A DNA stretch of 37,111 nt from a virus: the IMG/VR virus record IMGVR_UViG_3300046449_000138, positions 1 through 37,111 of that record. One strand, written 5' to 3'. The position numbers and the translations under genes are program-made. Each line of letters opens with the position of its first letter. Within the stretch, counting starts at the first letter, position 1. Positions 11,922 to 33,530 of this stretch are shown here, one piece after another. A model generated the notes under the pieces. The model did not search any database and was not told the DNA's origin. It saw only the letters and a list, made by a program, of their open reading frames with translations.

Positions 11922-11938
11922 CGGCTAAATCCTTCCCG

Positions 11939-23000: not shown

Positions 23001-24921
23001 GTTCATGGTGGATGCTAAAACGTATGCCGCTGATCCCGATAAATACCCTGACTTCATTCAGATGAAATCGAACGCGAACAAGAACGACCCGTTCGCTTAC
23101 ATGTATGCTGAGAAGTCTTTAGTGGAGGATTTGGCAGATGTTATTAACCCAAGCTTCGCCAACTCTGGAGCCTCCACTGCTGAAGAGGTTGTATCCAAGA
23201 CGGCCTCTTTACTCCAAAACCTCACAGGTAAGTCTATGTTACTTAAAACATTAGGCTCAGTGGGTTTCTATGCGCGTAACATTCTAGGGAACGTAATGTT
23301 CTTCGGCCCAGCCAATGGTATTCCGTTGAGAAAGATGGGGTCAACTCTTGTTGATACTTTTAAGTTCTCGAAAGAACAGTTCAAGAATCCTGATGAGATG
23401 GATGCCGTCCTATCTGAATACGTCACACTAGGCGTATTAGGAGATGAGCTTCGCGCCGGAATGATCAAAGAACTTCTTGATGCCAATGCAGGTAGCAAGG
23501 ATTTCATGTCCCGACTAAACGAAGTCTTAGATGAAGCCCCTGTGATTGGGAAAGGTAAAAGCTTTATTGCATCCACTGAGAAGAAGCTGATGGGTCTATC
23601 CGCTTCGGTGGATGGAGCCTACAAGATAGCCTACTATGAGCATGAGCTAGGTGTGCTTCGTAAGGCTGCGGCCAACCATCCTAATACTAAGGTGGGTAAA
23701 ATGAAGGACTTCGAACTCAAGCGCATGGCCGCAGATAACGTCAAACGAACGGCGCAGTCGCTGAGTCAGGCTCCCCCTATCGTTCGCGCATTGAGTAAAT
23801 CGAGTTATGGTATGCTCTTCGCCCCGTTCATCCGCTTCAAAGCAGAAGTGCCGCGAATTGTTTATAACACTTGGGCGTTATCTAAAGAAGAGATATCTAG
23901 TGATAACCCTGACATTGTCAGGCGCGGCAAGCAGAGACGACGCGGACTTGTTACCGTCATAGGCGCAGTATCCTTGGCCGCTCCTGCGGCTCTCGCGGCT
24001 CTCTCAGGAATTGGGGGCGACGAAGACGAAGCTCTACGTAAGTCGATGCCAAGCTACTTACAGGGGCATAGCTTCTACTATTGGGGTAAAGGAAAAGACT
24101 TAATTTCAGTAGACCTCACATACCTCAATCCATTCTCGCTTGTGACTGACCCGTTCGCTCGCGCCTTCCAATCACTAGCACAAGGCAACTTAGATGGCGC
24201 AGTCTCCTCCTTCCTCAAAGGCGCGTTCTTTGACCAATACCTCGATGAGCAAATCCTCGCGGGAGCAGTAAATGACGCGATGAATAATTTGAACTCTACG
24301 ACAGGCAATCCCATCTGGATCTCCGAAGTGGATGGATTTGGGCCGTCTCTGTGGAAGGGATTAGGATACGTCGCAAAAACTGCCTACTCTCCGCGTATGC
24401 TGAGTGACGCAGTAGATGCTTACGAAGCCGTAGGCGGCGATTACAACAAATTCACGGACTCTCCTATCGGAGAGTTGGTCGAGGGAATGTTCCCCGTTAG
24501 ATTTCATCCAGTCGATGTCGAGAAGCAGCATCGTAATTTCCTGCGAGATCACCAAAGTAGGCTTCGGCTGGTCAGTGATAAGAAGTTCCTGCTCTACAGC
24601 GACAAGCCGATCTCCGAAAGCCAGATCCGTGACGTTTACACCGACGAATACGAAGGCCGAAAGAAGCTCAACAAGGAGCTTTACCGCGTCATGCGGGGCT
24701 TTGAGGGACTCGGCGTATCAAAACTTCAACAGGTGGCTACGATGAAGCAATTCGGATTCGGGAAAGATAAAGCGGCCCTCATCTCCCAAGGGGTGATGGA
24801 CCGCCTGACCCCAAACAAAGGCTTTATCGAAAATCTAATTGAGAGGGGTCACGCAGATAGGGTCAAACCTCTGTTTGAAGCGCGTGATAAAGAACCACGA
24901 TACTACAAACTAGAGGAATAG
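14074..24921 (+). CDS. Giant multidomain virion/ejection protein (polyvalent-protein type, LPD38-like C-terminus)
   Basis: 3,615 residues in one uninterrupted frame, 29% of the window. Visible parts in order: a polar N-terminal third with hydrophobic stretches near residues 475-500, 533-565, 675-697 and 793-812; an Ala/Glu-rich linker near 897-926; two zincin-like segments, LLEEYVHAF (E1691, E1692, H1695, possible third ligand E1749) and VISEEVVHV (E1957, E1958, H1961, possible E2032); a GNAT-like segment ending GYSMWGRRGF (2347-2356); coiled coil around 2720-2790; and a C-terminal region from about 3050 (GFYARNILGNVMFFGP) with a membrane-like stretch near 3292-3310, resembling the LPD38 domain of large polyvalent phage proteins. 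Such proteins are packaged and ejected with DNA. T7/N4-type RNA polymerase motifs are not seen. It ends eight bases from the convergent gene at 24930. Confidence 0.85.
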   Translation: MTDYEKFFSSLTGSSEPEFEKYSAWSSKRSIEEEDVDRRVNYADYLRKTYIDAGAMSVKAEGDIQSSLYTSLVKNGALEQGDVEGYNALTAPKGISREAKLDMIQTRISQDDPDWTTITEFKEAQKMREEDPESFEEGSFNQLQAETEEAIERQYDVVKRRMLNSEELPFIATTDKEGNRRIIAGNSALKFDNLSDALAASSAGDVSLSDAYIAQEQLVIPAGATVPRFKLHRYNEAKGMINSLVKDSPDLKTQIEAHAKNLAESEDEGVLDWAKRRIEDIGEFVSGVFDGEAQENIEALDAAQEIDRTSTIQSIAEKLNIKSGLTQGEEYSGGEIEAAYSQIVLETAEAGGMFEFYEGEEAGKNLRITSFGVPVVHSAAMVNEGAFNDMLKARPELPTETRQILRANRTVVLDQNFDVYAKTLSRSSVDDEWNIALMQGRVDGKANHKILNDFLANEDNYSEFTAKAAGVGASVLDSFGTLLAAIPAAMGNDIAINYLSESAQRSSDRREVAQLFNQDYGYGQEILETISPMLVDIAATTVLAAFTAPAAGAGGAAYVAVRAGSLGAAKGIVKGVVGHTIKTAPTKIATLGLGKGKNSLTLAQVIKEAVKTGDAKLTNDVMKGFNSNLAEKIGITSAVFVPAATRSGAATYGSITNHLRSNTDLSEEEIRDRALGAGLMSGAITGVITSSFSFLGRGGLDDALLRGMSFRELKTATEKVTSFSGGIKNETISKAIRESVSKSMSKNGKIARVFSVGKNFTDEAAEEGLDQFVNSFVEDAALDQDTPLLERLSQTFHAAMIGGIMGAGAPVIQKIGSKLKINEQRKFAQVDRLYNDIAEDVEFNLRDTGSPVSAAVLSRYFKLGAKEAGQKLPADTEAPKLATTRAANEESGEPPLLTPLEAEAAEAAAEAAAKDEAILIQKAEAAEVSSFVEELQQVGPEELKTAADASISSAKAGLYPNASRPATKTPQIDLAFFQKGDQLTEAEEQEASVVLELENIGFPVRLTSSKNYGVPLTRQDTSSVSDYLAEKIYSKWPLIELDPKQKTTNFEGPRITYFNPKTGQKVKSTVIKGNLDVEGRGIFNNDPVLMAHMLAQDIRIPVPDSVNMFNINPSIKVVDGYVKHVKKPRVYGVGVEIVGSVLNDITNAQVDQSRLDDLKKLPFISAGMDSKVMPHGATPLNERGYSLPIGSTLSTYGDIHNSLLDYVQSVSGDTSLIKIHLRDSQKQGLDMLDVSDTASVTPVFEAYHEYVFLLNLFSMRDTLVKSTKHNFSAGGILAVPNKKARNFASRDIATRASIDGLVKDGKVNASLLASTLKGFVKVGERASHASVVEAFINQQILNNANFANGMMPTFPTILQKKVRKYIAQEKSRKMAQQNSIVSSFSDLNLDPEVFGDPLTGGMRSEQMTNLEGDIIVDPFAGSGQIDRDTDLSEVSQAARGIAKLSVEEIENSPELTQSLKDLFIEGIIPNASARQVAEVEKMKVSDIISYMGDFLRSANYETDGGSQALKFKKLLKENKLLGQESFKQAVYLNYLSNLDSNDPQFILGLRLMLKESLGKEVSDRDAVGFVKAINKSALLRFSRSHVSGKQRAIYEAENLQEIERLGLESQNPESVIEALKIISKTSDSKSHKLVANLLLEDEGFVRNVSFEMTQVDADFAGNYSRLTDGSHNVLINTKTGNGLGLENVLLEEYVHAFLNNVANLPLENLTPNQKTARTRLEGLFKLAENEYRRGPSNPYMEDAFENFDEFLAKFLLSPKLQALIKDLEPPKAQRGFFTRILDALVSMFRKVSKSEAAVYTAALGDVITLSKSVARTQSVPISQVSAMVAEDATRVVSDNAELYEFLGDVEAPVLETAQRPTDPQDANFASFLSKSKKGSTRNKKDQREFESLMLHLKSRLPYNMKVTEAKKKDPQAMDSPAWALGNEIFIRPDLIMEAVEDMDSVGSRVYVESVISEEVVHVASWNSLTTAEINSYIGQLSLDNFKDIAEEYYLDPNALKENIALLESSTEENFTEEQEKELTILKRRLAEEKLRMHLQKVTRGFTTEQDIEFWTSKPSLIQMLSRYFRGIFSRLAAMREMKGGSGALDSMLRKIHGEIQLINAGFNTVRAKTPFDTANPEATMLEFKRFMENDVLGEAQAYGEAVDQIITLATSSLPADSLNRIMRRAQLAVTDGQYFVDVEDSVEYYDVKNPHPDTGMDHQVIMDSLESLSNDSLEITVEQDEERWRGEGLVVNVTDLKAADGQESRAAMLQIRLERGGEIHIDWMKNYTTAARSFSGDFLNAVVATADQTGVNVLTTTGGGDYKNVAMKTARTEVLRHVENKFGVDAHDELATIMPTFTGTMVGYSMWGRRGFEVDDRSRKEVLRNLEKNSSPTPVQKTHEKWVILNSLRLPKATVSTIKENLSLPPTEELSVEDQLDSAFEEEEEGPITQEEKQGFAFSELSLAEKQSVLDFAVETVDRLFKKASDSATALLESPNDGEFDLFEAMHGGEVPTNRINQKHWVNTGNETDYVFDLSHGSKSLKAFYKGAAGKALLKERTNEKIAEAITEYRSEIKDADPESIQLIKDKYNDLVMDKEGEIGLDFPLFASSRNPNPVSSGDKYDFSMIPELLEISQLEYKTYKSPKGVMARMFQGDLGSPIKSMLDQRDEFKRGGLHVLKSFHRKFNDVIKEDGIILDDSTLLTIATAQGYNKDSLVKNSFYVTKESEHRARVEKIEADDTLTRAQKKVQKVASEQTSAAEIDSKEQSAIAARNLETAQALSDLAARSPRLASLITSMRSDLIQPLQEKIKGAGISDELRVRIDQTGGFYITRSYRMFNDPTFAQKVREDPLYGAVRAEGMAFFDKDIKDKARAAALNQNKSAVEADDAADKALRDAHDKAGAGSTHGEKALEAFIQRYESVHSGSPITSSRYSKIAKNFSERKDLPEQLRNILGEYGQEVGTDLIARTYATVSTIAAEQVFRSNIATVGKDQGFMVDAKTYAADPDKYPDFIQMKSNANKNDPFAYMYAEKSLVEDLADVINPSFANSGASTAEEVVSKTASLLQNLTGKSMLLKTLGSVGFYARNILGNVMFFGPANGIPLRKMGSTLVDTFKFSKEQFKNPDEMDAVLSEYVTLGVLGDELRAGMIKELLDANAGSKDFMSRLNEVLDEAPVIGKGKSFIASTEKKLMGLSASVDGAYKIAYYEHELGVLRKAAANHPNTKVGKMKDFELKRMAADNVKRTAQSLSQAPPIVRALSKSSYGMLFAPFIRFKAEVPRIVYNTWALSKEEISSDNPDIVRRGKQRRRGLVTVIGAVSLAAPAALAALSGIGGDEDEALRKSMPSYLQGHSFYYWGKGKDLISVDLTYLNPFSLVTDPFARAFQSLAQGNLDGAVSSFLKGAFFDQYLDEQILAGAVNDAMNNLNSTTGNPIWISEVDGFGPSLWKGLGYVAKTAYSPRMLSDAVDAYEAVGGDYNKFTDSPIGELVEGMFPVRFHPVDVEKQHRNFLRDHQSRLRLVSDKKFLLYSDKPISESQIRDVYTDEYEGRKKLNKELYRVMRGFEGLGVSKLQQVATMKQFGFGKDKAALISQGVMDRLTPNKGFIENLIERGHADRVKPLFEARDKEPRYYKLEE

Positions 24922-24929: not shown

Positions 24930-25145
24930 TTACAGGCGGTCGATGTATTTCTTCAGGGACTCCTTCATCCCGTCGATAGTGTCTTTGTCAAACCACCGAA
25001 GGAAATCCAGAGCGGACATTTCGATACTGATGTGCTTCATCTCAGCCACCTCAAAGGTTAGCGTGAGGAGTCCGTCATTTGACGGCCCACTTGTGGCAAC
25101 GAGGTTTCCTTCGTAGTTATCGTGTTCTATATTTGTATTATTCAT
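24930..25145 (-). CDS. Small hypothetical protein, 71 residues
   Basis: Last gene of the leftward accessory block, converging with the giant protein gene eight bases away. The ATG at 25145 (MNNTNIEHDNYEGNLVATSG) follows an A-rich leader (AAAAAAACACTAAT), as for its neighbours. An ATG 30 bases upstream is in frame but overlaps the gene before. The C-terminal half is beta then alpha (LLTLTFEVAEMKHISIEMSALDFLRWF). No family recognised. Confidence 0.65.
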   Translation of the reverse strand: MNNTNIEHDNYEGNLVATSGPSNDGLLTLTFEVAEMKHISIEMSALDFLRWFDKDTIDGMKESLKKYIDRL

Positions 25146-25162
25146 ATTAGTGTTTTTTTGTT

Positions 25163-25423
25163 TTAGGTTGTCCATAAGGAATTTCCGACGAGCCGGACTG
25201 ACATATGCTCCTCAAGGTCAGCGACCTCGTTGAGCGTTTCGACCATCGGCCCGTATTCCTCCTCGTCTAGATAGAGGTGGCGGTGGAGCGCGTCTGTAGT
25301 GACCCAGACTTTGCCGGATTCTTTATGGTAATTAACCACGTCCCAGCCAGAGGTGAGGCCGAGATTCTTTTCAAGTCCAGCCTTCTTAAAGAAGGCCATT
25401 TCTATTGGCATTATTGTTTTCAT
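25163..25423 (-). CDS. Small hypothetical protein, 86 residues
   Basis: From the ATG at 25423 it reads MKTIMPIEMAFFKKAGLEKN, then TSGWDVVNYHKESGKVWVTT and a helical LYLDEEEYGPMVETLNEVADLEEHM. The frame is open upstream, but that part would overlap the next gene. No known motif; compact and acidic. It lies four bases downstream of the 74-residue gene and 17 bases before the next start, so it is part of the leftward operon. Confidence 0.65.
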   Translation of the reverse strand: MKTIMPIEMAFFKKAGLEKNLGLTSGWDVVNYHKESGKVWVTTDALHRHLYLDEEEYGPMVETLNEVADLEEHMSVRLVGNSLWTT

Positions 25424-25427
25424 ATTT

Positions 25428-25652
25428 TTAGTGGGGTATTTGTGCGTAGCCAAATTTTTCGAATTGTTCAGATAACTTGTTTGCTGCGCGTAGCGATACA
25501 GGGATTCTTGTTTTCTCTTTCCCATCGTCCCACTCAAACACCCTGTCAAACAGGTAGTCTGGCGCAACATCAGCAAGAGGGTTTGCAGGGATCACTTTGA
25601 AGGTGTTTTTGAAGTGACCAGTTAACTTAATTGTCTTTATTTCTGTATTCAT
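25428..25652 (-). CDS. Small hypothetical protein, 74 residues
   Basis: From the ATG at 25652: MNTEIKTIKLTGHFKNTFKV, then a beta-rich middle (DYLFDRVFEWDDGKEKTRIPVS) and a short C-terminal helix. The upstream in-frame extension runs through the hairpin element at 25660-25717 and is unlikely to be translated. No family recognised. Confidence 0.65.
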   Translation of the reverse strand: MNTEIKTIKLTGHFKNTFKVIPANPLADVAPDYLFDRVFEWDDGKEKTRIPVSLRAANKLSEQFEKFGYAQIPH

Positions 25653-25729
25653 ATTTGTGTCAGTGGGTTTATTAAGCACTGAGGACCACATAGTGTAAGG
25701 TATCACGTTACACTATGCGGGATCAGGGT
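25653..25729 (-). repeat. Two-hairpin intergenic element, copy at 25.7 kb
   Basis: Near the start codon of the downstream gene: TCAGTG (25660-25665) pairs with CACTGA (25677-25682). Next to the upstream gene's stop: CATAGTGTAA (25689-25698) pairs perfectly with TTACACTATG (25708-25717). The tail GCGGGATCAGGGTT abuts the stop codon. The same layout with other stem sequences recurs at 27175-27226 and 28437-28493. Confidence 0.8.
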
Positions 25730-25816
25730 TCAGGCTCCAAGTAGTTTCGAGAGTAGGTATAGGAGTAGCATGAAGATGCCGAAGGGGGCGGCGGCATTGA
25801 GGATGTCAACTATCAT
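25730..25816 (-). CDS. Membrane micro-protein, 28 residues
   Basis: Reads MIVDILNAAAPFGIFMLLLYL and ends LSKLLGA: a single hydrophobic helix with a charged tail. The ATG overlaps the stop of the 66-residue membrane protein by 11 bases. Its TGA is followed directly by the tail AACCCTGATCCCGC, the same arrangement as after the stops of the genes ending at 27241 and 28510, which supports it being a true gene end. With its partner it may form a membrane pair (holin- or spanin-like roles are possible but not shown). Confidence 0.5.
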   Translation of the reverse strand: MIVDILNAAAPFGIFMLLLYLLSKLLGA

Positions 25817-26006
25817 GCTTCCGGCGGTAGTGTTTGTGGATGCGCTTCATGTCAGCTAGGTAGACCATGCGCTTGTAACGCGCTCTATCTTTCCTTTGCC
25901 ATACGCTGGCAACAAGGATGCCGATGAGGACGGGTGCGCCCAAGAAGATGGCTAGGAGCAGCGCGATGTCTGGCCCTTTCATTCCGTGTAGTAGTTCAAT
26001 TATCAT
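25806..26006 (-). CDS. Small single-span membrane protein, 66 residues
   Basis: The ATG at 26006 gives MIIELLHGMKGPDIALLLAI with a transmembrane helix over residues 13-35 (IALLLAIFLGAPVLIGILVA), then a strongly basic tail (RKDRARYKRMVYLADMKRIHKHYRRKHDS). By the positive-inside rule the C-terminus is cytoplasmic. The frame is open further upstream, but that part lies in a hairpin element and the DUF932 gene. Its stop overlaps the 28-residue membrane gene. It could be a holin-like or membrane-targeting accessory protein; no family recognised. Confidence 0.65.
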   Translation of the reverse strand: MIIELLHGMKGPDIALLLAIFLGAPVLIGILVASVWQRKDRARYKRMVYLADMKRIHKHYRRKHDS

Positions 26007-26079
26007 TTTATTTTGTCTGGGTTGGGTAATTCCAACACCACCTAAAGCTCCGGCCCGTAGGCCAGAGCTTATGGTGGGG
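26007..26079 (-). repeat. Two-hairpin intergenic element, copy at 26.0 kb
   Basis: Hairpin 1: GTTGG (26021-26025) with CCAAC (26032-26036). Hairpin 2: AAGCTC-c-GGCC with GGCC-a-GAGCTT (26045-26070). It fills the gap between the DUF932 gene and the small membrane protein. Confidence 0.65.
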
Positions 26080-27144
26080 CTAGCCATTAAGGGAGGCTGC
26101 GAGAATACGGCGTGTGTCTTCCTCCAATGAGGTGGACTTAAACGCCTCACTCGTCAGGTGGTGGGCGAATTTCTCTTTGTTGGCGGCGGCGGTTCCGAAC
26201 TCGGATGAGTAGGCCTTTTTACCCGCCGATGCAGTGCGGCCTACGCCGTCACCTGATGTCCAGAATTCAGTCGCGCCGTTCAGCGCATCGTAGAGCGACT
26301 GGCCGCTGTTACCGCGCCCACTGACCGAGAGATCTGTGATCCCGTCGATCATGTTGAGCGAGCGGGTTTTAAACCCTTCCTCAAGCCGTTCGCCGCGCTT
26401 GAATGCTTCGGTGACGAAGAACCCACCGACAACCTGACGGATGTCAGAGGCATTAACTTTAACGGCTGCTAGCGTTTCCATCTTCTCGATGAAGACTTCA
26501 CGAGAGGTGAACACGTCATTGAGGTAGCGGCTGAGATCCGCGCATTTCGCCGCCGTGTCGCCCTTATGTCTGATCTTGAAATCGACGTTCTTCTTCTTAC
26601 CATTCACCGATGCCCTGAGCGTGTTCTGACACACCACTCGTGTCTGCGAATCATGGGCGAGGAAGGAGCCGCCATCGTGTGACGTGATGAAGTTCAGGTT
26701 GCTGTGAAACTTATCCCCGTTGACCATGAATCCGCCGTTATCATCGCCGACTGCAACGCTGATGAAGAATTTCTTCAGCCCGCCAAGGGTTCCGATACAG
26801 GACAGGGTGTAGTCAAGGCCGGTGCCTTTGAACGCCTCCGACATTGTCTCGAAGACCTGCTCGTTCTGAATGATCGAATACCGGTCTGTGACAACGTCCA
26901 GCGTTTGCTTCGCGCCATTCTTAGCGACGGTAGTCAACGCTCGAAAGTTTGGCACCATCAGCGGCGCACGGGTATCAACCTCGATAAATAGTGGAGTCTT
27001 CTCCACTGTAGGTAGGAGATCATAATCTTTCGCGACTTGCATCGTGATTGGCAATGGCGTTGTCTGATCCAGTCCGTGCCAAGTGGTATACTTGGAACCT
27101 TCAGGGCGGAGGACTGTATCGATCTCTGTAATATTGTGGCTCAT
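26080..27144 (-). CDS. DUF932 / phage-plasmid-like protein (TIGR03299 type)
   Basis: 354 residues, the usual length. The family pattern is visible: VVTDRYSIIQNEQVFETMSEAF near residues 85-107, FISVAVGDD, LNFITSHDGGSFLAHDSQTRVVCQNTLRA near 150-180, and a helical second half. DUF932 proteins are common in phages and plasmids; their biochemical role is unknown, and some are linked to DNA transfer or anti-defence regions. It is the largest gene of the leftward accessory block. Start: ATG after AATAGAAAATAAGATT, no Shine-Dalgarno. Confidence 0.88.
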   Translation of the reverse strand: MSHNITEIDTVLRPEGSKYTTWHGLDQTTPLPITMQVAKDYDLLPTVEKTPLFIEVDTRAPLMVPNFRALTTVAKNGAKQTLDVVTDRYSIIQNEQVFETMSEAFKGTGLDYTLSCIGTLGGLKKFFISVAVGDDNGGFMVNGDKFHSNLNFITSHDGGSFLAHDSQTRVVCQNTLRASVNGKKKNVDFKIRHKGDTAAKCADLSRYLNDVFTSREVFIEKMETLAAVKVNASDIRQVVGGFFVTEAFKRGERLEEGFKTRSLNMIDGITDLSVSGRGNSGQSLYDALNGATEFWTSGDGVGRTASAGKKAYSSEFGTAAANKEKFAHHLTSEAFKSTSLEEDTRRILAASLNG

Positions 27145-27240
27145 AATCTTATTTTCTATTGGTTTTTGGTTCGGTTCAGTGGGTCATTGTGACCCCTGAA
27201 TGCTACGCCATGCATGACACATGGCGCAGTGGTTCAGGGT
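27145..27240 (-). repeat. Two-hairpin intergenic element, copy at 27.2 kb
   Basis: Hairpin 1: TTCAG-t-GGGTCA (27175-27186) with TGACCC-CTGAA (27190-27200), three-base loop. Hairpin 2: CGCCATG (27206-27212) with CATGGCG (27220-27226). The tail GGTTCAGGGTT adjoins the stop codon of the upstream gene, as at 25.7 and 28.5 kb. The link GCTACGCC between the hairpins recurs at 28.87 and 29.86 kb. Confidence 0.8.
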
Positions 27241-27471
27241 TCATTCCGTCCACCAGCAGTATTGCCAACGACGGTCATCGCCCTGCCAGACAACGGCAGC
27301 ACGGTCATCCCTGTCTAGAGACCCGTCTGGCTGGACATAGTATGCGGAGGTGGGTTGACGTTGTCTCCACCGCAATTTGGTGAATTCTCCAAGTTCGGTG
27401 GTGGGGAACGTCGCAGAGCAACCCGCGCCTTTCTTGTTGTGCCAATGAGCTTGGCATCGTTCAGTTTTCAT
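27241..27471 (-). CDS. Small hypothetical protein, Trp- and Cys-containing, 76 residues
   Basis: Opens MKTERCQAHWHNKKGAGCSA; the C-x11-C and two histidines could bind metal. The C-terminus is Trp-rich (RWQYCWWTE). No family recognised. Both flanking gaps carry hairpins, so the gene looks like one unit of the cassette array. Confidence 0.6.
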   Translation of the reverse strand: MKTERCQAHWHNKKGAGCSATFPTTELGEFTKLRWRQRQPTSAYYVQPDGSLDRDDRAAVVWQGDDRRWQYCWWTE

Positions 27472-27543
27472 ATTGGTTATTGGTTATTGGTTTGAGGGGG
27501 TAAACTACTGAGTTGGCTCACAGTAGTCAAATTCTTTTCACGT
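27472..27543 (-). repeat. Intergenic hairpin with 7-bp tandem repeats
   Basis: TATTGGT occurs three times in tandem just upstream of a start codon (27471-27491). ACTACTG (27504-27510) pairs with CAGTAGT (27521-27527), with extra inner GAG/CTC pairing. It holds no gene. Confidence 0.65.
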
Positions 27544-27927
27544 TTATTTTAATTTGCTCACACCAAAGTAGATCTTCTTTGGCGCGGTTTCGAAGAAGTG
27601 GAGCAGGGCGGGGCATAGCCAGCCGACCATAGTCTCCCCGTATTGGCCGTCACCATCTAACGTGTAGACGTTACCGCCCTGTTCAGCCTCGACCCATGTG
27701 AGAGCATGGGTTGCGGCTGGGAAGACTCCCTTGCTGAACGTCAGCCGGAACCCGCTTTCAACGGACTCAGGATCGATGTCTACGTCCTCAAGGACGAAGT
27801 CGATGATCTCGCTCATGCCGCTGACAAATGCCTCTTCGACTAGGCCGTAGAGGTCATTGTCAAAAACCCATTGGCCGTGGATATAATAGGGAGCGAGTGA
27901 TGTGATTTGAGTATTGTTTTTAGTCAT
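27544..27927 (-). CDS. DUF6717-like protein
   Basis: 127 residues from the ATG at 27927 (MTKNNTQITSLAPYYIHGQW). The body matches the DUF6717 pattern seen in enterobacterial and phage proteins: LAPYYIHGQWVFDND..GLVEEAFVSG...IDFVL, then ESGFRLTFSKGVFP, LTWVEAEQGGNVY and GWLCPALLHFFETAPKKIYF. No function is established for the family. An in-frame upstream start would be read through a CCAA tandem repeat (27930-27957), which I regard as leader. Confidence 0.75.
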   Translation of the reverse strand: MTKNNTQITSLAPYYIHGQWVFDNDLYGLVEEAFVSGMSEIIDFVLEDVDIDPESVESGFRLTFSKGVFPAATHALTWVEAEQGGNVYTLDGDGQYGETMVGWLCPALLHFFETAPKKIYFGVSKLK

Positions 27928-27929
27928 AT

Positions 27930-27957
27930 TTTGGTTGGTTGGTTGGTTGGTTGGTTG
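27930..27957 (-). repeat. CCAA/GGTT tetranucleotide tandem repeat in the leader of the DUF6717-like gene
   Basis: Six GGTT-type units in a row (CCAA on the coding strand) end next to the start codon. Related CCAACCAA stretches occur in or before the first codons of genes at 28184, 29322, 30109 and 32819. Confidence 0.8.
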
Positions 27958-27968
27958 GGTTGTTGTTG

Positions 27969-28184
27969 TTATTTCCACACTGGGCGGAGGTTTGAGAAGT
28001 GAAGGAGAGCTTCGACTTCGAAAGGATTATCCTCTGGAGTAATCTTTACGGCTTGCGTCACGGTCCATAGGTGCGCGTTACTCCAAGTCATGCCATCTAG
28101 GAACAGGCTCTGAATGTGGTCCTCGACAACCTCCCGAGATGGGACGGCAATCTTGCTTTTTGTGTAGTTGGTTGGTTGGCTCAT
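27969..28184 (-). CDS. Small hypothetical protein, 71 residues
   Basis: Starts MSQPTNYTKSKIAVPSREVV; the first codons contain the CCAACCAAC motif shared by several genes here. A helical middle (EDHIQSLFLDGMTWSNAHLW) is followed by a short C-terminal part. No family recognised. It lies 14 bases from the next upstream gene, one of the few gaps without a hairpin. Confidence 0.6.
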   Translation of the reverse strand: MSQPTNYTKSKIAVPSREVVEDHIQSLFLDGMTWSNAHLWTVTQAVKITPEDNPFEVEALLHFSNLRPVWK

Positions 28185-28198
28185 GTTGTTTTGTTTGG

Positions 28199-28429
28199 TT
28201 AGTGGATTTCGGTTTCGTAACTGGCCCAGCCATGCTTCTCGGCGAGGCGGTCAGCGGCGGCGTTAGCGGCTGATTCAAACTCCACGCCCCTTGTTGGTAG
28301 TCTACCTGCTATTCGGGTAGACAGGTGGTGTATCGTGTCTCCGTCCCCCGCCTCGGCAACGAGGTAAGAGTGGGAGTAGCCGTAGTCGGCGCGGACTGTG
28401 ATTCCTATTGTATTATTATCGGTATTCAT
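28199..28429 (-). CDS. Small hypothetical protein, 76 residues
   Basis: Starts MNTDNNTIGITVRADYGYSH, beta-rich N-terminal half, helical C-terminal half (ESAANAAADRLAEKHGW). No family recognised. The start is preceded by the two-hairpin element at 28430-28509. Confidence 0.6.
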   Translation of the reverse strand: MNTDNNTIGITVRADYGYSHSYLVAEAGDGDTIHHLSTRIAGRLPTRGVEFESAANAAADRLAEKHGWASYETEIH

Positions 28430-28509
28430 TTTATTGTCAGTGAGGTTAATAAAACACTGATGGCCGCATCCTGTAACGTCATACAGGATGCGGGAATCAG
28501 GGTTCGGGG
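28430..28509 (-). repeat. Two-hairpin intergenic element, copy at 28.45 kb
   Basis: Hairpin 1: TCAGTG (28437-28442) with CACTGA (28455-28460), the same 6-bp stem as at 25.66 kb. Hairpin 2: CCGCATCCTGTA (28464-28475) with TACAGGATGCGG (28482-28493), 12 bp perfect. The tail GAATCAGGGTT precedes the upstream gene's stop. Confidence 0.85.
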
Positions 28510-28842
28510 TTAACTCCGCGCAGCTTTCGCCATGCGGTCATATGTTTGCAGATGCTGGTCTGGACTGTGGTATCCGTGGAGGAGTATCCCGACATTGTTC
28601 CCGTCTTTGTCGATGGGACGGTAGTTGTTCGTGCCTACCCATTCATCGGCTCGGACCATCCATAGCTGGATGGCTGCTTGGGCCTTTTTCCATTTGTCCG
28701 ACCCCTTGCGAGGCCGCTTGTCGTAGAAGGTGAAGTCCTGCACTTTGGCGATGGCTTGTGCTGGCGAGGTCGAATACCCCCACCCATATGGGGCGACGGC
28801 GAGGAAGTTGATGGCGGCAGTAGTAGTGTTTGTTTTATTCAT
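28510..28842 (-). CDS. Hypothetical protein, 110 residues
   Basis: Starts MNKTNTTTAAINFLAVAPYG. Contains WGYSTSPAQAIAKVQDFTFYDKRPRKGS and AIQLWMVRADEWVGTNNYRPID; the 'GW(G)...s..eAi......' build resembles small phage proteins of unknown role. The ATG directly follows the hairpin stem at 28843-28878, so the hairpin may control initiation. No family recognised. Confidence 0.65.
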   Translation of the reverse strand: MNKTNTTTAAINFLAVAPYGWGYSTSPAQAIAKVQDFTFYDKRPRKGSDKWKKAQAAIQLWMVRADEWVGTNNYRPIDKDGNNVGILLHGYHSPDQHLQTYDRMAKAARS

Positions 28843-28908
28843 AGCTCTCAGCTACCAGTCCGCTGGTGGCTGAGAGCTACGCCCCGCATGGCGGGGACAT
28901 AGGGTTGG
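28843..28908 (-). repeat. Two-hairpin intergenic element, copy at 28.87 kb
   Basis: Hairpin 1: AGCTCTCAGC-t-ACCAG (28843-28858) with CTGGT-g-GCTGAGAGCT (28863-28878), 15 paired positions ending at the start codon. Hairpin 2: CCCCGC (28882-28887) with GCGGGG (28891-28896). The copy at 29820-29887 shares its layout and part of its sequence. Confidence 0.85.
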
Positions 28909-29322
28909 CTATGCATCGAAGACCTCTGCGTGGGTGATTGCGCTCTTAAGCTCTCGATCTGAAGCGAGCAGAGACTCCCTCCAATCGTTAGATGTGCGGA
29001 AATCGCCGCCGCCATCTACATACTCATCCCGCTCAGTGGATGAGTCGAACCGGTGGTAGTTCGCACCGTAGCGGTCGCCAGTGTTGGCACAGACAGCTAC
29101 TCCCAATGCGTAGCTCACGCAGTAGTAGTGTTTTGCAGGAGGAGTTGGGGCGGCAAAGCGGAGTTCGGCGCGATTGATCCAGCGGAGGACATCGCCCACT
29201 TGGACGGTGGTATCAGCATCAAATTTGCTCGAAGAGAGGTAATCCCTCAAGTCGTTGAGCGTCTGGGCGGCGGCGGCAAGTGTATCGGTATCAGTCATAA
29301 TGGTTGGTTGTTTGTCTATCAT
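28909..29322 (-). CDS. Hypothetical protein sharing a module with the gene at 31873-32145
   Basis: 137 residues from the ATG at 29322; an ATG 24 bases downstream (MTDTDTLAAAAQTL) is equally possible. Near residues 25-55, LRDYLSSSKFDADTTVQVGDVLRWINRAEL is clearly related to LRAYLQSSKFYEDPTVQTADVLRRLDEVRL in the 90-residue protein encoded at 31873, so the two are paralogous over about 30 residues. The C-terminal part (HYYCVSYALGVAVCANTGDRYGANYHRF) is unique. Family unknown. Confidence 0.6.
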   Translation of the reverse strand: MIDKQPTIMTDTDTLAAAAQTLNDLRDYLSSSKFDADTTVQVGDVLRWINRAELRFAAPTPPAKHYYCVSYALGVAVCANTGDRYGANYHRFDSSTERDEYVDGGGDFRTSNDWRESLLASDRELKSAITHAEVFDA

Positions 29323-29332
29323 CGGTTGGGTT

Positions 29333-29418
29333 TCAATTTCAAAGGACAGCAAGACCTTCAGCCACTCCCTTTTAAAGGGAGCAGCGCAGGCTGCTGGTGT
29401 GTGTGTGTGTGTGTGTGT
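29333..29418 (-). repeat. Family I intergenic repeat, copy A, with (GT)11 microsatellite
   Basis: Contains AAAGGACAGCAAGACCTTCA, the hairpin CTCCCTTTTAAAGGGAG, and GCAGC-gcag-GCTGC followed by TGGTGT. The 22-base GT run (29397-29418) ends at the stop codon of the upstream gene. The other copies lie at 30108, 31812, 32389 and 32815. Confidence 0.9.
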
Positions 29419-29819
29419 CAGTTTTCGATCACGCGACGTATCCTAATCCCTTCCACAGAGACGCGAAGTGTGTTTAGGAGGCGGGTTTGAACGCCGTTCA
29501 ATGCTCCAACTTCCTTGAGGAAGTTGAGTGCCTCTGCCTCCCGCCCTTCATCGGCTTCCTCTGCCACGCTTCGGGCAAAGAGATTATCTTTCACTGTCTC
29601 CAGTTCACTGGTTAATCCATTAAGAACCCCATCAACCCTGCTTTGCAGGGTGGTCGAGTTAGTTACTCCGACCTTCTCCTTAAGGAGCAGATCGAGTTCT
29701 TGCAATCTTCTTATAGCCTCAGAGAGGCCGAGTGATCCGGTTTGATGGTCCACATTAGCGTCTGGCAACGCATACTTGAACACTTCTTGAACAACTGTTT
29801 TTGCTTTTGTTTTTGTCAT
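29418..29819 (-). CDS. Helical hypothetical protein, 133 residues
   Basis: The ATG at 29819 gives MTKTKAKTVVQEVFKYALPD, then mostly helix with heptad-like Leu/Val spacing (GLSEAIRRLQELDLLLKEKV, VDGVLNGLTSELETVKDNLF), likely coiled coil. No cysteines or membrane segment. The ATG directly follows the hairpin at 29820-29855, as in the gene at 28842. Its stop is followed directly by an 11-unit CA run. No family recognised. Confidence 0.65.
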   Translation of the reverse strand: MTKTKAKTVVQEVFKYALPDANVDHQTGSLGLSEAIRRLQELDLLLKEKVGVTNSTTLQSRVDGVLNGLTSELETVKDNLFARSVAEEADEGREAEALNFLKEVGALNGVQTRLLNTLRVSVEGIRIRRVIEN

Positions 29820-29887
29820 AGCTCGCAACCACCGGATGTCCAGTAGCTGTGAGCTACGCCCCGCCGTGGCGGGGTGCAGGGTTTCGC
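29820..29887 (-). repeat. Two-hairpin intergenic element, copy at 29.85 kb
   Basis: Hairpin 1: AGCTCgCA (29820-29827) with TGTGAGCT (29848-29855), ending at the start codon. Hairpin 2: CCCCGCC (29859-29865) with GGCGGGG (29868-29874), two-base loop. The link CTACGCC and tail CAGGGTT are shared with the other copies. Confidence 0.85.
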
Positions 29888-30109
29888 CTACCAAAACATC
29901 ATCGCTCCGACTTTGTCGGATTCTTTGGTTAGGACGTAGTCGGGATCATGTGTTAGGTTAACGACTCCTCCGAGGTCGAGGTTGCTGAGTTTAGCAGCTT
30001 GGGTCTCTGCATCCCTACGAGACGTAGCTCTCACAGTGTTATAACCTCCTCGACCCCAGTTGAAATGCCAGTTTGTCGGTTGGTTTGTTTGGTTGGTTTT
30101 TGTTGTCAT
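29888..30109 (-). CDS. Small hypothetical protein, 73 residues
   Basis: Starts MTTKTNQTNQPTNWHFNWGR. The first seven codons are also the start of the 122-residue protein at 32819, and the DNA match continues into the Family I repeat upstream of both. The body RATSRRDAETQAAKLSNLDL looks like the 'v.a.s..eA...A' motif of small phage proteins. No function known. Confidence 0.6.
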   Translation of the reverse strand: MTTKTNQTNQPTNWHFNWGRGGYNTVRATSRRDAETQAAKLSNLDLGGVVNLTHDPDYVLTKESDKVGAMMFW

Positions 30110-30187
30110 CAATTTCAAAGGACAGCAAGACCTTCAGCCACTCCCTTTAAAAGGGAGCAGCGCAGGCTGCTGGTGTGTGTGTGTGTT
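30108..30187 (-). repeat. Family I intergenic repeat, copy B, with (GT)7
   Basis: AAAGGACAGCAAGACCTTCA, the hairpin CTCCCTTTAAAAGGGAG, GCAGC-gcag-GCTGC, then seven GT units (30173-30186). It overlaps the stop of the upstream gene and the start of the downstream gene. Confidence 0.9.
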
Positions 30188-30623
30188 AGCCTTTGGCGAT
30201 CTGGCGGAGGATCTCGTGGCCATCGATGGTCGGGTGGTTACGCAGACGGTGTAGCTGTGAGTAGGTATCGCAACCCACTGTAGTGGAGCCAGCCCTGTAC
30301 CAGTCCCTCAAAAGATGGTCTGTCCAATCCCATCGGCCAGAGGCCATTGCGTATGTTAAAAGCGGGGCGGTAAACCGCTCCAGCCCCTCATATCCGGCGG
30401 TGACAAAGGTGATACGGGCGGACTGTCTTTGGACGAAGTCCATACGCATCGTCTTAAATGCGTCCAGTGCGTCATCGGTGAAATAGCTCGCATCTCCTCT
30501 CTTACCCTTTGGGTAAATCTCAATCTCTCCGTCAAGTTTCTTGACGATGTATCCACGCTTCTTGGCGGCAGTCTTAAGTTCGGTTAGGGGCATCTTTTCG
30601 GCGGGTGTATATTTAGTTATCAT
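30186..30623 (-). CDS. Hypothetical protein, 145 residues
   Basis: Starts MITKYTPAEKMPLTELKTAA. The first 50 residues (KKRGYIVKKLDGEIEIYPKGKR...SYFTDDALDAFKTM) alternate helix and strand; the rest is helical with LLTYAMASGRWDWTDHLLRDWY. No cysteine pairs or membrane segment. No family recognised. A 14-bp tandem triplet lies in its leader. Confidence 0.65.
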   Translation of the reverse strand: MITKYTPAEKMPLTELKTAAKKRGYIVKKLDGEIEIYPKGKRGDASYFTDDALDAFKTMRMDFVQRQSARITFVTAGYEGLERFTAPLLTYAMASGRWDWTDHLLRDWYRAGSTTVGCDTYSQLHRLRNHPTIDGHEILRQIAKG

Positions 30624-30634
30624 AATTTATTATG

Positions 30635-30676
30635 GGTTCAGTGTTAGTGGTTCAGTGTTAGTGGTTCAGTGTTAGT
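30635..30676. repeat. Three tandem 14-bp repeats
   Basis: GGTTCAGTGTTAGT repeated exactly three times (30635, 30649, 30663) between two genes. The third unit overlaps the stop codon of the upstream Gp88-like gene. The unit resembles the GGTTCAGTG pieces found in other leaders of this block. Confidence 0.9.
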
Positions 30677-31556
30677 GAGTCAGGATGACTACGTCAGCTT
30701 TGTTGTCGCTGCCGCAGAAGTGGCCTTGTGGGGTGCAGTCACCACATAGGCCGGAACATACGAAGACACGCTTCAATCCCGCCTCTTTGGCGTATTGGCG
30801 GGCCTTTGATCGGTAGTCTGCCGTATTGTATTCGGCCCCTCCTTTGGAGCCGATGGCCTTGAACCAGCCTCTTGTGATCGGCAGGGCAAGAACACGTCTT
30901 GCAATCCCGCTGTTCTCATTGAACCTGCTGCCGTTGGACAGATTCAAACGGTAGTTTGTTGGCCACTCTCCAGCATAGCTGGCAAGTTCTTCCCAAGACT
31001 TGGAGTAGCCGTAGGCTTTCAAGATCGGCTTCTTACGGAGTAAGGTCATCCACTTGTCTACCGTTTCGACAGAGTCGAAGTCACCGTCTACGAAGAGCCG
31101 GAAGTCAATCTTCGATTGTGACTTGAACTGTCTGGTCTGGATGACACGGTCAAGCTCTGCTTCGACAAGGTCGAACCGGAATCTCTGTAAGAGACTGTTA
31201 CGAAGTTGTCGGAAGAACGGGTGAACATTCCTCCAGCCTTTCAGGCTATAACAGAAGTTCTTGCATTCTCCGGCTCCGCCGCAGTCAAGTAGCGGCATGG
31301 ATGACCAGCTTAGAAACGGTAGTTTCTTGTTGCCATTAGCGGCAAAGGCTTTGCCTTTCACGCCAAGGGCAATTCCGGCTTCGTGATTAATGACTAGCGA
31401 ATGCTGCCAAATTATGAAGTTTGCAAAGCACGATCTCCAGTGGGGGCTGGCAGTCTTAATCTCTTGTGGCATAGCCACAGTCTTTCCTTCTTTGGTTGCT
31501 GCCAAGGCAGCTTGTGAGAAGGCTATCAATGTTTTATGTTTTACGGTAGTAGTCAT
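30672..31556 (-). CDS. Gp88-like phage protein with cysteine-rich motif
   Basis: 294 residues from the ATG at 31556. The segment DCGGAGECKNFCYSLKGWRN (C92, C98, C102) followed by FFRQLRNSLLQRFRFDLVEAEL matches the Gp88 family known from mycobacteriophages, as do FRLFVDGDFDS and YRLNLSNGSRF in the middle. A second cysteine cluster, CSGLCGDC...C, lies near the C-terminus. The cysteine pattern suggests a metal or Fe-S site. The biochemical role of Gp88 is not known. Start: ATG after AACAACTGAAACCCAAAACATT, a C/A-rich leader. Confidence 0.75.
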   Translation of the reverse strand: MTTTVKHKTLIAFSQAALAATKEGKTVAMPQEIKTASPHWRSCFANFIIWQHSLVINHEAGIALGVKGKAFAANGNKKLPFLSWSSMPLLDCGGAGECKNFCYSLKGWRNVHPFFRQLRNSLLQRFRFDLVEAELDRVIQTRQFKSQSKIDFRLFVDGDFDSVETVDKWMTLLRKKPILKAYGYSKSWEELASYAGEWPTNYRLNLSNGSRFNENSGIARRVLALPITRGWFKAIGSKGGAEYNTADYRSKARQYAKEAGLKRVFVCSGLCGDCTPQGHFCGSDNKADVVILTH

Positions 31557-31576
31557 AATGTTTTGGGTTTCAGTTG

Positions 31577-31801
31577 TTAAAGCAGAGGCCAAGCTTTCTT
31601 ACCATCGAAGATGGTCCATCTTTGGCGGTCGTGGACAAGGAACAGAGTTCCTTTCTTCCACTGGTCGTTAACGGTCGCCGATGTTGGCCGATACCCTTTT
31701 AGGGTAAAGAGGATGATGATCAGCCTGTCTAGCAGCGAGAGCCGCGAGAAGCTGAAGAGATTATTTTTGAGGAATTTCGTGTTTGTCATGGTTTCAGTCA
31801 T
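31577..31801 (-). CDS. Small hypothetical protein with hydrophobic segment, 74 residues
   Basis: Starts MTETMTNTKFLKNNLFSFSR; an internal ATG at 31789 is also possible. LLDRLIIILFTLKGYR may be a membrane-associated helix. The C-terminal half (WKKGTLFLVHDRQRWTIFDGKKAWPLL) is beta-rich. Its stop lies 20 bases before the Gp88-like start, so the two are probably co-translated. No family recognised. Confidence 0.55.
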   Translation of the reverse strand: MTETMTNTKFLKNNLFSFSRLSLLDRLIIILFTLKGYRPTSATVNDQWKKGTLFLVHDRQRWTIFDGKKAWPLL

Positions 31802-31811
31802 TGTTCAGTTG

Positions 31812-31874
31812 TTAAAGGACGGTAAAGCCTCAAGCCACTCCCTTTTAAAGGGAGCAGCGTGGGCTGCTGGTGTT
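31812..31874 (-). repeat. Family I intergenic repeat, copy C
   Basis: AAAGGACGGTAAAGCCTCAA, the hairpin CTCCCTTTTAAAGGGAG, GCAGC-gtgg-GCTGC and TGGTGT, ending at the upstream gene's stop. Compared with copy A it has GG for CA and TG for CA at several places, while the stems stay intact. Confidence 0.9.
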
Positions 31875-32145
31875 AGCCGTTCGTGATGGAGTCAAGAGCT
31901 TCAGAGGCATCCATCAAAGCTGACCATTTAGCGATAGTCTCATCATAGGTCAGTCTGACTTCGTCAAGGCGACGAAGAACATCGGCAGTCTGCACCGTAG
32001 GATCTTCGTAGAACTTTGAGCTTTGAAGGTAAGCTCTTAGCTCTGTAAGAGCTAGGTGAGCTTTATTTATTTCGAGCTTTAGCTCGGTGTTTTCTTGCGC
32101 CAATTCGGCTTTTGTTGTTCCTGCAATTTGTATTGTTTTTGTCAT
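31873..32145 (-). CDS. Coiled-coil hypothetical protein, 90 residues, paralogous to part of the gene at 28909
   Basis: Starts MTKTIQIAGTTKAELAQENT. Residues 12-35 (KAELAQENTELKLEINKAHLAL) are a likely coiled coil. LTELRAYLQSSKF...TVQTADVLRRLDEVRL is the module shared with the 137-residue protein at 28909-29322. Function unknown. The duplication inside one block suggests shuffling of small genes. Confidence 0.65.
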   Translation of the reverse strand: MTKTIQIAGTTKAELAQENTELKLEINKAHLALTELRAYLQSSKFYEDPTVQTADVLRRLDEVRLTYDETIAKWSALMDASEALDSITNG

Positions 32146-32164
32146 AACTTGTTATGGTTCGGGA

Positions 32165-32383
32165 TTAGAGGTTCGTGTTTCGGGATTCGTGGTTCAATCG
32201 TTGGAGAATCCTAACGATTTGAGGGTATCGTTCTTCAGAACGTGTTACATTCTCAAGAGCCTTTCCCAAAGACGTGTTGAACACGCGCCTTTGGTAGGGG
32301 TTCATTCCCTTGAGTATTTTGCTAGTCTCTGCTACAGCAGCAGACATTTGTTTGTCAGTAGTTTCAGTTATCATTTCTTTCAT
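32165..32383 (-). CDS. Small helical protein, 72 residues
   Basis: Starts MKEMITETTDKQMSAAVAET; almost entirely helical and polar (NPYQRRVFNTSLGKALENVT). The leader ACCGATGA resembles that of the gene at 29322; both follow a Family I repeat. No family recognised. Confidence 0.55.
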   Translation of the reverse strand: MKEMITETTDKQMSAAVAETSKILKGMNPYQRRVFNTSLGKALENVTRSEERYPQIVRILQRLNHESRNTNL

Positions 32384-32388
32384 CGGTT

Positions 32389-32452
32389 TTTAAAGGACGG
32401 TAAAGCCTCAAGCCACTCCCTTTAAAAGGGAGCAGCGTGGGCTGCTGGTGTT
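32389..32452 (-). repeat. Family I intergenic repeat, copy D
   Basis: AAAGGACGGTAAAGCCTCAA, the hairpin CTCCCTTTAAAAGGGAG, GCAGC-gtgg-GCTGC, TGGTGT. It is nearly identical to copy C and fills the whole gap between two genes. Confidence 0.9.
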
Positions 32453-32819
32453 AGGCGAGCAGGTCCGCCTCGTCTGCGGCCTCGATGAGGCCGTCTTGGA
32501 TGTCCTTGTAAAGGACAACCCACAGCCCACGCTGCTCGACCTCTTCTATCGAAGAGACGATGTCGCCCATCGCCTCCTTGATGTGGAGGTAATGGTCGCC
32601 ATCGGCTCTTTGAGCCTTTGGATCGAAGAGTCTTAGGACGTAAGTCCTAATCTCTTTTGCTTCATCATCAGAGAGTAATCTCTGATTGAGTGTTGCCATA
32701 GCGGCATCGAATACCTCAAAGGTCTCATGCTGGAAGGCTGTCGTAAAGACAGTGATTGTTGGCAGGGTGGCCAGCATTCTTTCGAAGCCATTTGGCATTT
32801 GGTTGGTTTTTGTTGTCAT
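32451..32819 (-). CDS. Hypothetical protein, 122 residues, first gene of the leftward accessory block
   Basis: Starts MTTKTNQMPNGFERMLATLP at 32819; the frame is open for 66 more codons upstream, but that part lies in the repeat-rich control region. Mostly helical and acidic, ending EEVEQRGLWVVLYKDIQDGLIEAADEADLLA. No known motif. As the most upstream gene it would be expressed first from a promoter in 32820-33160. The first seven residues match those of the protein starting at 30109. Confidence 0.6.
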   Translation of the reverse strand: MTTKTNQMPNGFERMLATLPTITVFTTAFQHETFEVFDAAMATLNQRLLSDDEAKEIRTYVLRLFDPKAQRADGDHYLHIKEAMGDIVSSIEEVEQRGLWVVLYKDIQDGLIEAADEADLLA

Positions 32820-32890
32820 CAACTCCAAAGGACAGCAAGACCCTTCTCCAATCCCTCTTCGAGGGATACGCGGGCTGCGCTCGCGCTCAC
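32815..32890 (-). repeat. Family I intergenic repeat, copy E (diverged)
   Basis: AAAGGACAGCAAGACCCTTC with the hairpin ATCCCTCTTCGAGGGAT in place of CTCCCTTTTAAAGGGAG, then a GC-rich CGCGGGCTGCGC segment. The stem sequence changed but pairing is kept. It lies in the leader of the first gene of the block. Confidence 0.75.
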
Positions 32891-33126
32891 GCGTAAGAGG
32901 ATCAAGGATCAAGGAAGAGGGAATCGCGTGTGATGCAAGGCGAAGTTTACCTTTCAGGTAGCTCAACCGAATCCTGAATCCCTGATCCTCGAATCCTTTT
33001 GCGTGTTTCGCGGTCAAGGAAGAGGGATCAGGGAATCAGGGATCAGGGAATCAGGGACACGCCACGGGTGGGTAGGCGGGTTTTTGTGCGCGCGCGAACG
33101 TATATATATGTATATTTAGAAAAAAA
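32891..33126. other. Iteron-like repeats and AT-rich stretch, candidate origin or control region
   Basis: This non-coding gap between divergent blocks holds AGGATCA twice (32898-32911), the inverted CTGAATCCCTGATCC (32974-32988), and a 15-bp direct repeat GGGATCAGGGAATCA twice in tandem (33024-33053). It also has AAGGAAGAGGGA twice, a CG-alternating tract (GCGCGCGCG) and an AT-rich segment (33100-33128) with TATATATATGTATAT. Clustered iterons beside an AT-rich stretch are typical of replication origins. Transcription factor operators are the alternative. No gene seen. Confidence 0.5.
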
Positions 33127-33154
33127 TTGACGGGCCTCCCGTCTCGGTTAGAGT
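33127..33154 (+). promoter_or_regulatory. Possible promoter with overlapping dyad, near-leaderless
   Basis: TTGACG (33127-33132), 16 bases, TAGAGT (33149-33154). The ATG of the next gene lies only five bases after the -10-like box, so the transcript would be leaderless or nearly so. A perfect dyad GACGGG-cct-CCCGTC (33129-33143) overlaps the -35 box and could be an operator. Confidence 0.4.
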
Positions 33155-33490: not shown

Positions 33491-33530
33491 AATGCCCTCC
33501 CGAAAAAGGGCCAAAAGCGAAAGTCGAAAT

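Follow-up and report, generated by a model that had tools for sequence, protein, structure and literature searches.

A leftward array of small genes with folded gaps

The window, by which we mean the whole 37,111-nucleotide stretch of the IMG/VR virus record IMGVR_UViG_3300046449_000138, carries about 20 small genes in one block read leftward on the minus strand, from 32819 down to 24930, as an earlier sequence-only reading had described (Table 1). A giant open reading frame at 14074-24921 gave no Pfam or PHROG match. The conserved sequence that borders the array upstream, whose match in L007 is weaker and longer, is probably the region where the leftward transcript starts. Adjacent genes are mostly unrelated, as had been stated, except that genes 31873-32145 and 28909-29322 fall into one homology cluster and may therefore be paralogues. 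The 354-aa gene is presumably DUF932-like.

Table 1 Features of the small-gene array and its surroundings
Feature	Position	Strand	Details
Conserved sequence, upstream end of array	33055..33130	-	74-85% identity over ~75 nt in L005, L006, L008, L009
Small-gene array, ~20 genes read leftward	24930..32819	-	ORF calls with codon model
Family A, diverged copy	32820..32889	-	precedes gene 32451-32819; direct-repeat copy
Family A hairpin	32384..32450	-	z=-3.7; family also in G001-G003, L159
Family A hairpin	31802..31872	-	z=-3.8
Apparently inserted gene	31577..31801	-	between A element and GP88-family gene; flanking direct repeats
GP88-family gene, Pfam PF17338	30672..31556	-	E=5e-16; 92-93% identity in L005-L007
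Tandem 14-mer leader, no hairpin	30624..30671	-	direct-repeat family D5; z=-0.3
Family A hairpin	30110..30185	-	downstream of (CA)n run; z=-3.2
Family B double hairpin	29820..29887	-	z=-6.6; second stem ends on AUG 29817-29819
Family A hairpin	29323..29417	-	downstream of (CA)n run; z=-3.0
Family B double hairpin	28843..28908	-	z=-7.1; second stem ends on AUG 28840-28842
Family C hairpin	28430..28509	-	z=-7.3
AACC-repeat leader, unstructured, no hairpin	27928..27968	-	MFE 0
Hairpin F, weak	27472..27543	-	A/C-rich leader; z=-2.1
Family D element	27145..27240	-	precedes gene 26080-27144; z=-5.0; covariation over 9 copies
354-aa gene, PHROG 1221	26080..27144	-	E=1e-30; 73-76% identity in L008-L011
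Family E hairpin	26007..26079	-	z=-5.5
Family C hairpin, second copy	25653..25731	-	fold -18.6 kcal/mol; 16-nt arms 88% complementary

To quantify folding, 12 gaps of 40-140 nt were scored against dinucleotide shuffles. Ten of them reached z<-2 and nine z<-3, compared with 17% and 6% of 432 coding control windows of 80 nt, and the strongest folds of the block were located nearly all in gaps. Exceptions to the earlier statement that nearly every gap longer than 40 bp contains hairpins were two leaders without a hairpin (30624-30671 and 27928-27968) and one weak hairpin (27472-27543). Six families, A-F, were recognised in the window, all placed between a stop and the next start, and families A, B, and C each recur in more than one gap; the observation as a whole, of hairpins in gaps that are related to each other, was confirmed. 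Hairpin length was 17.0 bp (sd 3.8), and the geometry is alike across families of unrelated sequence: often a small internal loop separates 11-12 bp of upper stem from a lower stem of 5-7 bp. The median spacing was 11 nt from stop to hairpin and 25 nt from hairpin to AUG. An A/C-rich leader usually follows the hairpin, while in family B the stem ends on the AUG instead.

Shine-Dalgarno sites are nearly absent from the window genes, the upstream regions of which are A-rich. Sigma-70-like sites (9/12 match) occurred in one of 54 elements against 2.2 in shuffles, a promoter scan of the window returned 7 sites where 6.5 were expected, and a T tract followed the stem in only three of the 54 elements. 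With promoter matches at chance level and T tracts almost absent, we rejected intrinsic terminators and promoters as the content of the spacers. No element matched Rfam at the gathering score, and the tRNA search found none.

RNA-level conservation and the start codon of family B

Gene-sense RNA folded better than its complement in 37 of the 54 elements (p=0.009, as inflated as every p value taken over copies, because the copies are related), compared with 44% in coding controls. G-U pairs outnumbered A-C pairs by 70 to 9 in four families, a count biased by structures derived partly on the gene-sense strand. In family D, 98.4% of cells were paired, with seven pairs changed on both sides and an invariant CCUGAA; in family B, the corresponding figures were 96.5% and eight pairs, and the invariant sequence was GUAGCU/AGCUAUG. 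Judged by this covariation, families B and D are RNA structures. The covariation support for family A is weaker: both-side changes appeared at one pair among 10 copies and at three pairs among 16, the diverged copy at 32820..32889 contributing such changes in A6. Family A also contains the invariant sequence CUCCCUUU and a nearly invariant palindrome, CTCCCTTTWAAAGGGAG. The copies at 29323..29417 and 30110..30185 are 98% identical over a 66-nt core, and copies of this family are more similar within genomes than between them (0.77 vs 0.69, p=0.0045), a pattern that was not seen for families B, D, or G.

The start codons behind the two family B elements of the window are predicted to be almost completely paired, with unpaired probabilities of 0.005-0.027 (29817-29819) and 0.019-0.088 (28840-28842). 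In each of the 12 aligned copies the stem closes on the AUG, and the unpaired probability of its A did not exceed 0.024 in any of 16 copies. The hairpins apparently act as portable RNA control modules, among which some bury the start codon. In most copies, the segment before the first hairpin of family B can pair with GUAGCU (combined p=1.5e-7, over related copies); the AUG-closed fold is favoured over this competing 1:2 pairing by 2.8-14.8 kcal/mol. Family B offers a testable case of start-codon locking in which Shine-Dalgarno pairing goes unused.

Independent exchange of genes and hairpins among relatives

The relatives of this phage have portal proteins that are 78-94% identical, whereas their array genes differ strongly; the hairpin families recur there. 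Orthologous genes were found with a family A element, a family B element, or none, and likewise with a D element, another one, or none. Conversely, one family D copy stands 100% identical ahead of two different genes, and the family E pattern precedes another gene in G012 and G014. Genes and hairpins therefore move separately: orthologues carry differing elements or none, and one and the same element is found ahead of different genes. The proposal that a gene is gained or lost as a unit with its structured spacer was accordingly only half right, and the orthologue comparison rules out a fixed tie of one gene to one spacer. Relatives having the same gene without the hairpin, named beforehand as speaking against the sequence-only reading, do occur. 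Hairpins are mostly missing from the whole arrays of G012, G032, and G036 and from some array genes, so the modules are not essential.

Gene 31577..31801 is flanked by 13-nt direct repeats, TTTAACAACTGAA, which derive from the tail of the A element (31804-31816 and 31569-31581), and G002 and G003 have a single copy of this repeat immediately before the GP88 gene. This gene looks as if it had been inserted between the A-tail repeats. Given this insertion, the swaps between A, B, and no element, and the identical D copy, the portable unit looks like hairpin, leader, start codon, and first codons rather than gene plus spacer. IMG/VR pattern scans placed the A, B, and G cores exclusively in this group of uncultured marine phages, which comprises hundreds of metagenomic contigs; the cultured phages searched included no close relative and no terminase match. 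Within such closely related phages, RNA border modules and genes exchange independently, and this illustrates concretely, at the level of sequence, how small-gene arrays of phages can acquire genes and keep them expressed.

Possible roles of the border hairpins

The explanation we tentatively favour, at somewhat less than an even chance, is that the spacers act in cis as portable RNA modules where the cistrons of a single leftward polycistronic message meet, the message being cut or insulated at each of them. An early polycistronic RNA would span the array, and a nuclease specific for dsRNA, with host RNase III as the likeliest candidate, would cut each module, or the hairpin would insulate the message there; each downstream gene would thereby acquire a 5' leader of its own. 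Freeing the locked AUG of family B would need a cut or an opening of the stem, making the B genes conditional. New genes could join behind a module and be expressed, because the module would bring leader and start codon, and A/C-rich start regions and repeated tails may supply short homologies for such joins. The anatomy, namely stop-to-start placement, RNA-level covariation, absence of promoters, and few T tracts, fits a polycistron cut at each hairpin, one of the options raised from the sequence. The specificity of RNase III is not readable from sequence, and about 17 bp is rather short for the E. coli enzyme. One Opitutae MAG in which related phage contigs occur contains an RNase III gene, the host of the present phage being uncertain; none was detected in 14 phage records by a profile that also missed some control genomes. 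In shape, the hairpins resemble the RNase III sites of T7. Those sites likewise lie between early genes of one polycistron (PMC4858673, PMC9135205), which here is a putative single transcript; unlike them, the present hairpins form many sequence families, B ends on the AUG, and cleavage is only predicted. T7-type RNA polymerase (PF00940) gave no match here, in a search that had no positive control. N4-like hairpin promoters would call for a virion RNA polymerase; besides the PF00940 search, the observation that bears on them is the giant open reading frame at 14074-24921 with neither a Pfam nor a PHROG match.

The family-specific invariant sequence exceeds what a nuclease reading only shape would need, which hints at a specific binder. 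The hairpins could accordingly be translational operators, through which an RNA-binding protein of the phage or its host, or else a bistable switch, co-regulates the genes of each family, A and B being phage-type-specific versions of one regulon. The AUG within the B stem, the pairing potential of GUAGCU, and orthologues that carry A in one phage and B in another, with no searched record besides the window having both, agree with this idea. However, the upper stems vary freely, the competing B pairing is the weaker one, and no RNA-binding protein was recognised among the window proteins scanned; moreover, A and B occur together in the window. We consider this reading possible but rather unlikely. 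The replicase operator of MS2 is a hairpin containing the start codon, as in family B, which differs in preceding many different genes and in having no known binding protein. Because the competing pairing is thermodynamically disfavoured, we keep it only within a further, doubtful proposal: family B may be a portable start-codon lock, with the AUG held in a 17-19-bp stem and no Shine-Dalgarno sequence, that toggles with the competing pairing just past the upstream stop, so that a ribosome finishing the upstream gene, or a nuclease cut, decides whether the downstream gene opens. This logic, in which a middle segment can pair to either side, upstream or downstream, may recur, for example in family D. 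About equally doubtful are passive insulators or mRNA stabilisers, shielding upstream 3' ends and separating gene borders with neither cutting nor regulation: the hairpin spacing and the open A/C-rich leader behind it in most families agree with such a role, which leaves the buried AUG of family B and the fixed family sequences unexplained.

Recombination sites or mobile cassettes, with hairpins that exist to promote gene exchange, appear improbable. The strong differences in gene content despite similar portals, the direct-repeat insertion, and the frequent loss of homology at most a few tens of bases from a stop or a start speak for them, yet selection alone also predicts the last of these, elements swap independently of genes, covariation and stop-to-start position indicate an RNA role, and no integrase was found. 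Integron arrays likewise combine variable, small, unrelated genes with structured spacers, but here genes and spacers move separately and tyrosine recombinases were found in none of 14 records (controls positive in 14/14), which upholds the earlier judgement that this is not a known integron. Still less credible are DNA palindromes bound by a repressor, similar to stoperators. The case is strongest for family A, with its palindrome and little covariation, although the A stems contain G-U pairs, families B and D show covariation, and the elements as a whole show a sense-strand preference.

Returning to portable RNA modules, the promoter early stem-loops (PeSLs) of T4-like phages (Arbiol 2010, Comeau 2014), each an early promoter with a terminator stem-loop, are, as far as the account in PMC4503421 goes, mobile intergenic cassettes of variable small-gene regions tied to gene shuffling; the present elements likewise precede different genes in related phages. 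Set against that account, they differ in lacking the early promoter (1/54 vs 2.2 shuffled) and mostly the terminator T tract (3/54), in forming several families, in the start codon within B, and in belonging to another phage group. In cluster K mycobacteriophages, the 13-bp SAS lies immediately upstream of start codons, and SAS/ESAS resemble the present elements in this position, in their inverted repeats, in a consensus that varies between phages, and in a suspected role in translation start (PMC3203893). ESAS mostly keep to one gene family across phages (PMC3203893), whereas here orthologues swap or lack their elements.

Structured gaps in the leftward array

About 20 minus-strand genes make up the array, gene starts throughout being predictions, and 12 of its gaps (40-140 nt) were scored by fold z-scores against dinucleotide shuffles. 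The results showed z < -3 in 9/12 gaps, against 6% of coding windows, which bears out the leftward array with structured gaps described in the sequence-only reading; its wider statement, that nearly every gap above 40 bp holds a hairpin, fits these nine but not two gaps of A/C-rich repeats, which hold none. The window hairpins were grouped into families A (four copies and a diverged fifth), B (two), C (two) and D, E and F (one each), rarer elements being assigned by pattern. Relatives also carry A, B and D, and E occurs in two related records (G012 and G014), there before another gene.

Features of the window
Feature	Position	Strand
Terminator-like hairpin	2422-2508	-
Terminase	9997-11787	
Palindromes, ~80 nt	33418-33651	+
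Palindromes, ~80 nt	11788-12012	
3615-aa ORF	14074-24921	
Array	24930-32819	-
354-aa gene (PHROG 1221)	26080-27144	-
A/C-rich repeat gap	27928-27968	
Paralogue candidates	28909-29322; 31873-32145	-
A/C-rich repeat gap, leader CATAATAAATTATG	30624-30671	
GP88 gene (PF17338)	30672-31556	-
Gene between TTTAACAACTGAA copies	31577-31801	-
Leader CATAACAAGTTATG	32146-32160	
Gene with A or B	32165-32383	-
Diverged A copy	32820-32889	
Rightward gene block	from 33160	+

Comparison of the copies suggests that the elements act at the RNA rather than the DNA level. In family D, standard pairs fill 98.4% of cells and 7 pairs have changed on both sides, compared with 4.1 in shuffles; its upper stem varies freely and CCUGAA/UUCAGG is nearly fixed. 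Family B is 96.5% paired, with 8 such pairs. The support is weaker for family A because it is nearly invariant, its 16 copies giving 3 pairs with both-side change (a count reached in 0/500 shuffles). Furthermore, the gene-sense strand folded better than its complement in 37/54 elements (p=0.009; coding windows, 44%) and in 30/44 after grouping (p=0.03). Element copies are related to each other, which makes any significance figure over copies too strong. G-U outnumbered A-C pairs 70 to 9 in the four aligned families, a comparison biased towards G-U because their structures come in part from the gene-sense strand itself. The main hairpin spans 42 nt with 17.0 bp (sd 3.8), a figure to which competing MFE folds add noise, and in many non-B elements an internal loop of 1-3 nt separates an upper stem of 11-12 bp from a lower one of 5-7 bp. 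Median distances are 11 nt from stop to hairpin and 25 nt from hairpin to AUG.

Homology clustering puts two of the array genes together, so they may be paralogues. The leaders CATAATAAATTATG and CATAACAAGTTATG, the latter also present in the related phage G002, form short inverted repeats that take in the start codon.

Exchange of hairpin modules

Comparison of relatives shows that the RNA hairpins at the borders between cistrons are modules exchanged independently of the genes. Orthologues of one array gene have A in the window and G003 but B in G007, and the D element before a 219-aa gene (G005) is identical to that before a 38-aa gene (G021), which bears out only in part the earlier proposal that a gene and its structured spacer are gained and lost as a unit. 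The expectation that relatives with the same genes keep hairpins held in part: in the 354-aa gene family, five phages have D and two another hairpin, but two have none (two more have an unscored long gap). For the GP88 gene, the sequence directly upstream is an A element in G001 and G002 and a partial or overlapping one in G003; in the window this gene follows a gap of 20 nt. Since two copies of TTTAACAACTGAA, the A-element tail, flank the neighbouring window gene and a single copy directly precedes the GP88 gene in G002 and G003, that neighbour looks like an insertion at an A module. In G006, a B element opens an 11-codon reading frame about 40 nt before the next real gene, as if the module had brought a remnant of another gene along.

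The window portal protein was matched in 15/48 related records, in nearly every case across most of its length and at 78-94% identity; one match is short and partial and lies at the end of a contig. With genes called by one common method, array gene content varied widely, and all arrays together held 54 gap elements with z < -3; arrays G012, G032 and G036 had few hairpins and short gaps. Homology between arrays often stops near stop and start codons, which could arise from selection alone. IMG/VR pattern scans for the A, B and G cores of the modules gave no matches outside this phage group, so they appear to be an innovation of the group itself and not a class found widely.

Proposed processing or regulation, and start codons

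We prefer a leftward polycistron that would be processed or insulated at the hairpins, host RNase III being the likeliest cutter, because the elements recall the T7 early region in their placement, in sharing a shape without sequence identity and in lacking promoter or terminator signals; that region has RNase III processing sites (PMC4858673), ten in T7 (PMC9135205). An RNase III profile matched in an Opitutae MAG and in none of 14 phage records, although it also missed some control genomes. The main rival is that the hairpins are translational operators regulating gene sets, since the fixed sequence in every family goes beyond shape and since A and B seem to mark types of phage (B in 7, A in 3 and both in 0 of 48 searched records); the window, however, has both. 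N4-type hairpin promoters are conceivable in principle, but no polymerase domain was recognised in the 3615-aa ORF, which had no Pfam or PHROG match, and the PF00940 polymerase profile gave no match in a search run without a positive control.

Among known systems, the PeSLs of T4-like phages lie closest in evolution and position, but the array elements lack the promoter and terminator that PeSLs have (PMC4503421). As inverted repeats before start codons, the ESAS of cluster K mycobacteriophages (PMC3203893) come closest, yet they mostly remain with their gene families, whereas array elements swap between orthologues. An integron, already discounted in the sequence-only reading, was ruled out because no tyrosine recombinase was found in 14 records.

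Shine-Dalgarno sequences are almost absent from window genes, upstream regions are A-rich, and an open A/C-rich leader lies 3' of most hairpins. The second stem of family B closes on the AUG in 12/12 aligned copies (pairs C-G, G-U or A-U, and U-A), and the predicted unpaired probability of its A is <=0.024 (16 copies); with the AUG so buried, some form of stem opening should be needed before these genes start.

Phage group and candidate host

The window is an IMG/VR virus record of 37,111 bases, whose leftward replication genes comprise a family A DNA polymerase, a DUF2800 exonuclease, a helicase and a resolvase. For the terminase, IMG/VR contains 434 relatives and the cultured phage collection none; its start is probably ATG 9997 rather than TTG 9934, since several relatives carry a stop codon in the upstream part. 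Three terminase relatives lie in draft-genome contigs, two of an uncultured Opitutae bacterium and one of Altibacter. GC content (48.1 against 49.0%) and tetranucleotides both give the phage a better match with the Opitutae sample, in which Shine-Dalgarno sites are few (16% of 19 genes); Bacteroidota and some Verrucomicrobiota are named as scarce in them (PMC10783764). Because binning can misplace phage contigs, this is a weak hint of an Opitutae host.

The position of the giant ORF looks highly variable, since the convergent ORF in the relatives' loci has about 1830-2552 aa as called, against 3615 aa. About 1 kb without called genes lies upstream of the first array gene at locus L011:1-430 and in G005 and G021, all phages with B elements; it is partly conserved (82-92%) and is a possible non-coding RNA. 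The hairpin upstream of the DNA polymerase gene differs from those of the array: it is strong, a T run follows it, and it resembles an intrinsic terminator. Near-perfect palindromes (AAACTATTCTC...GACCCTTAGT...ATATA...ACTAAGGGTC...GAGAATAGTTTTT) occur in many relatives and are possibly bidirectional terminators; two of the copies are direct, and a third, inverted, is nested in a terminator-like hairpin.
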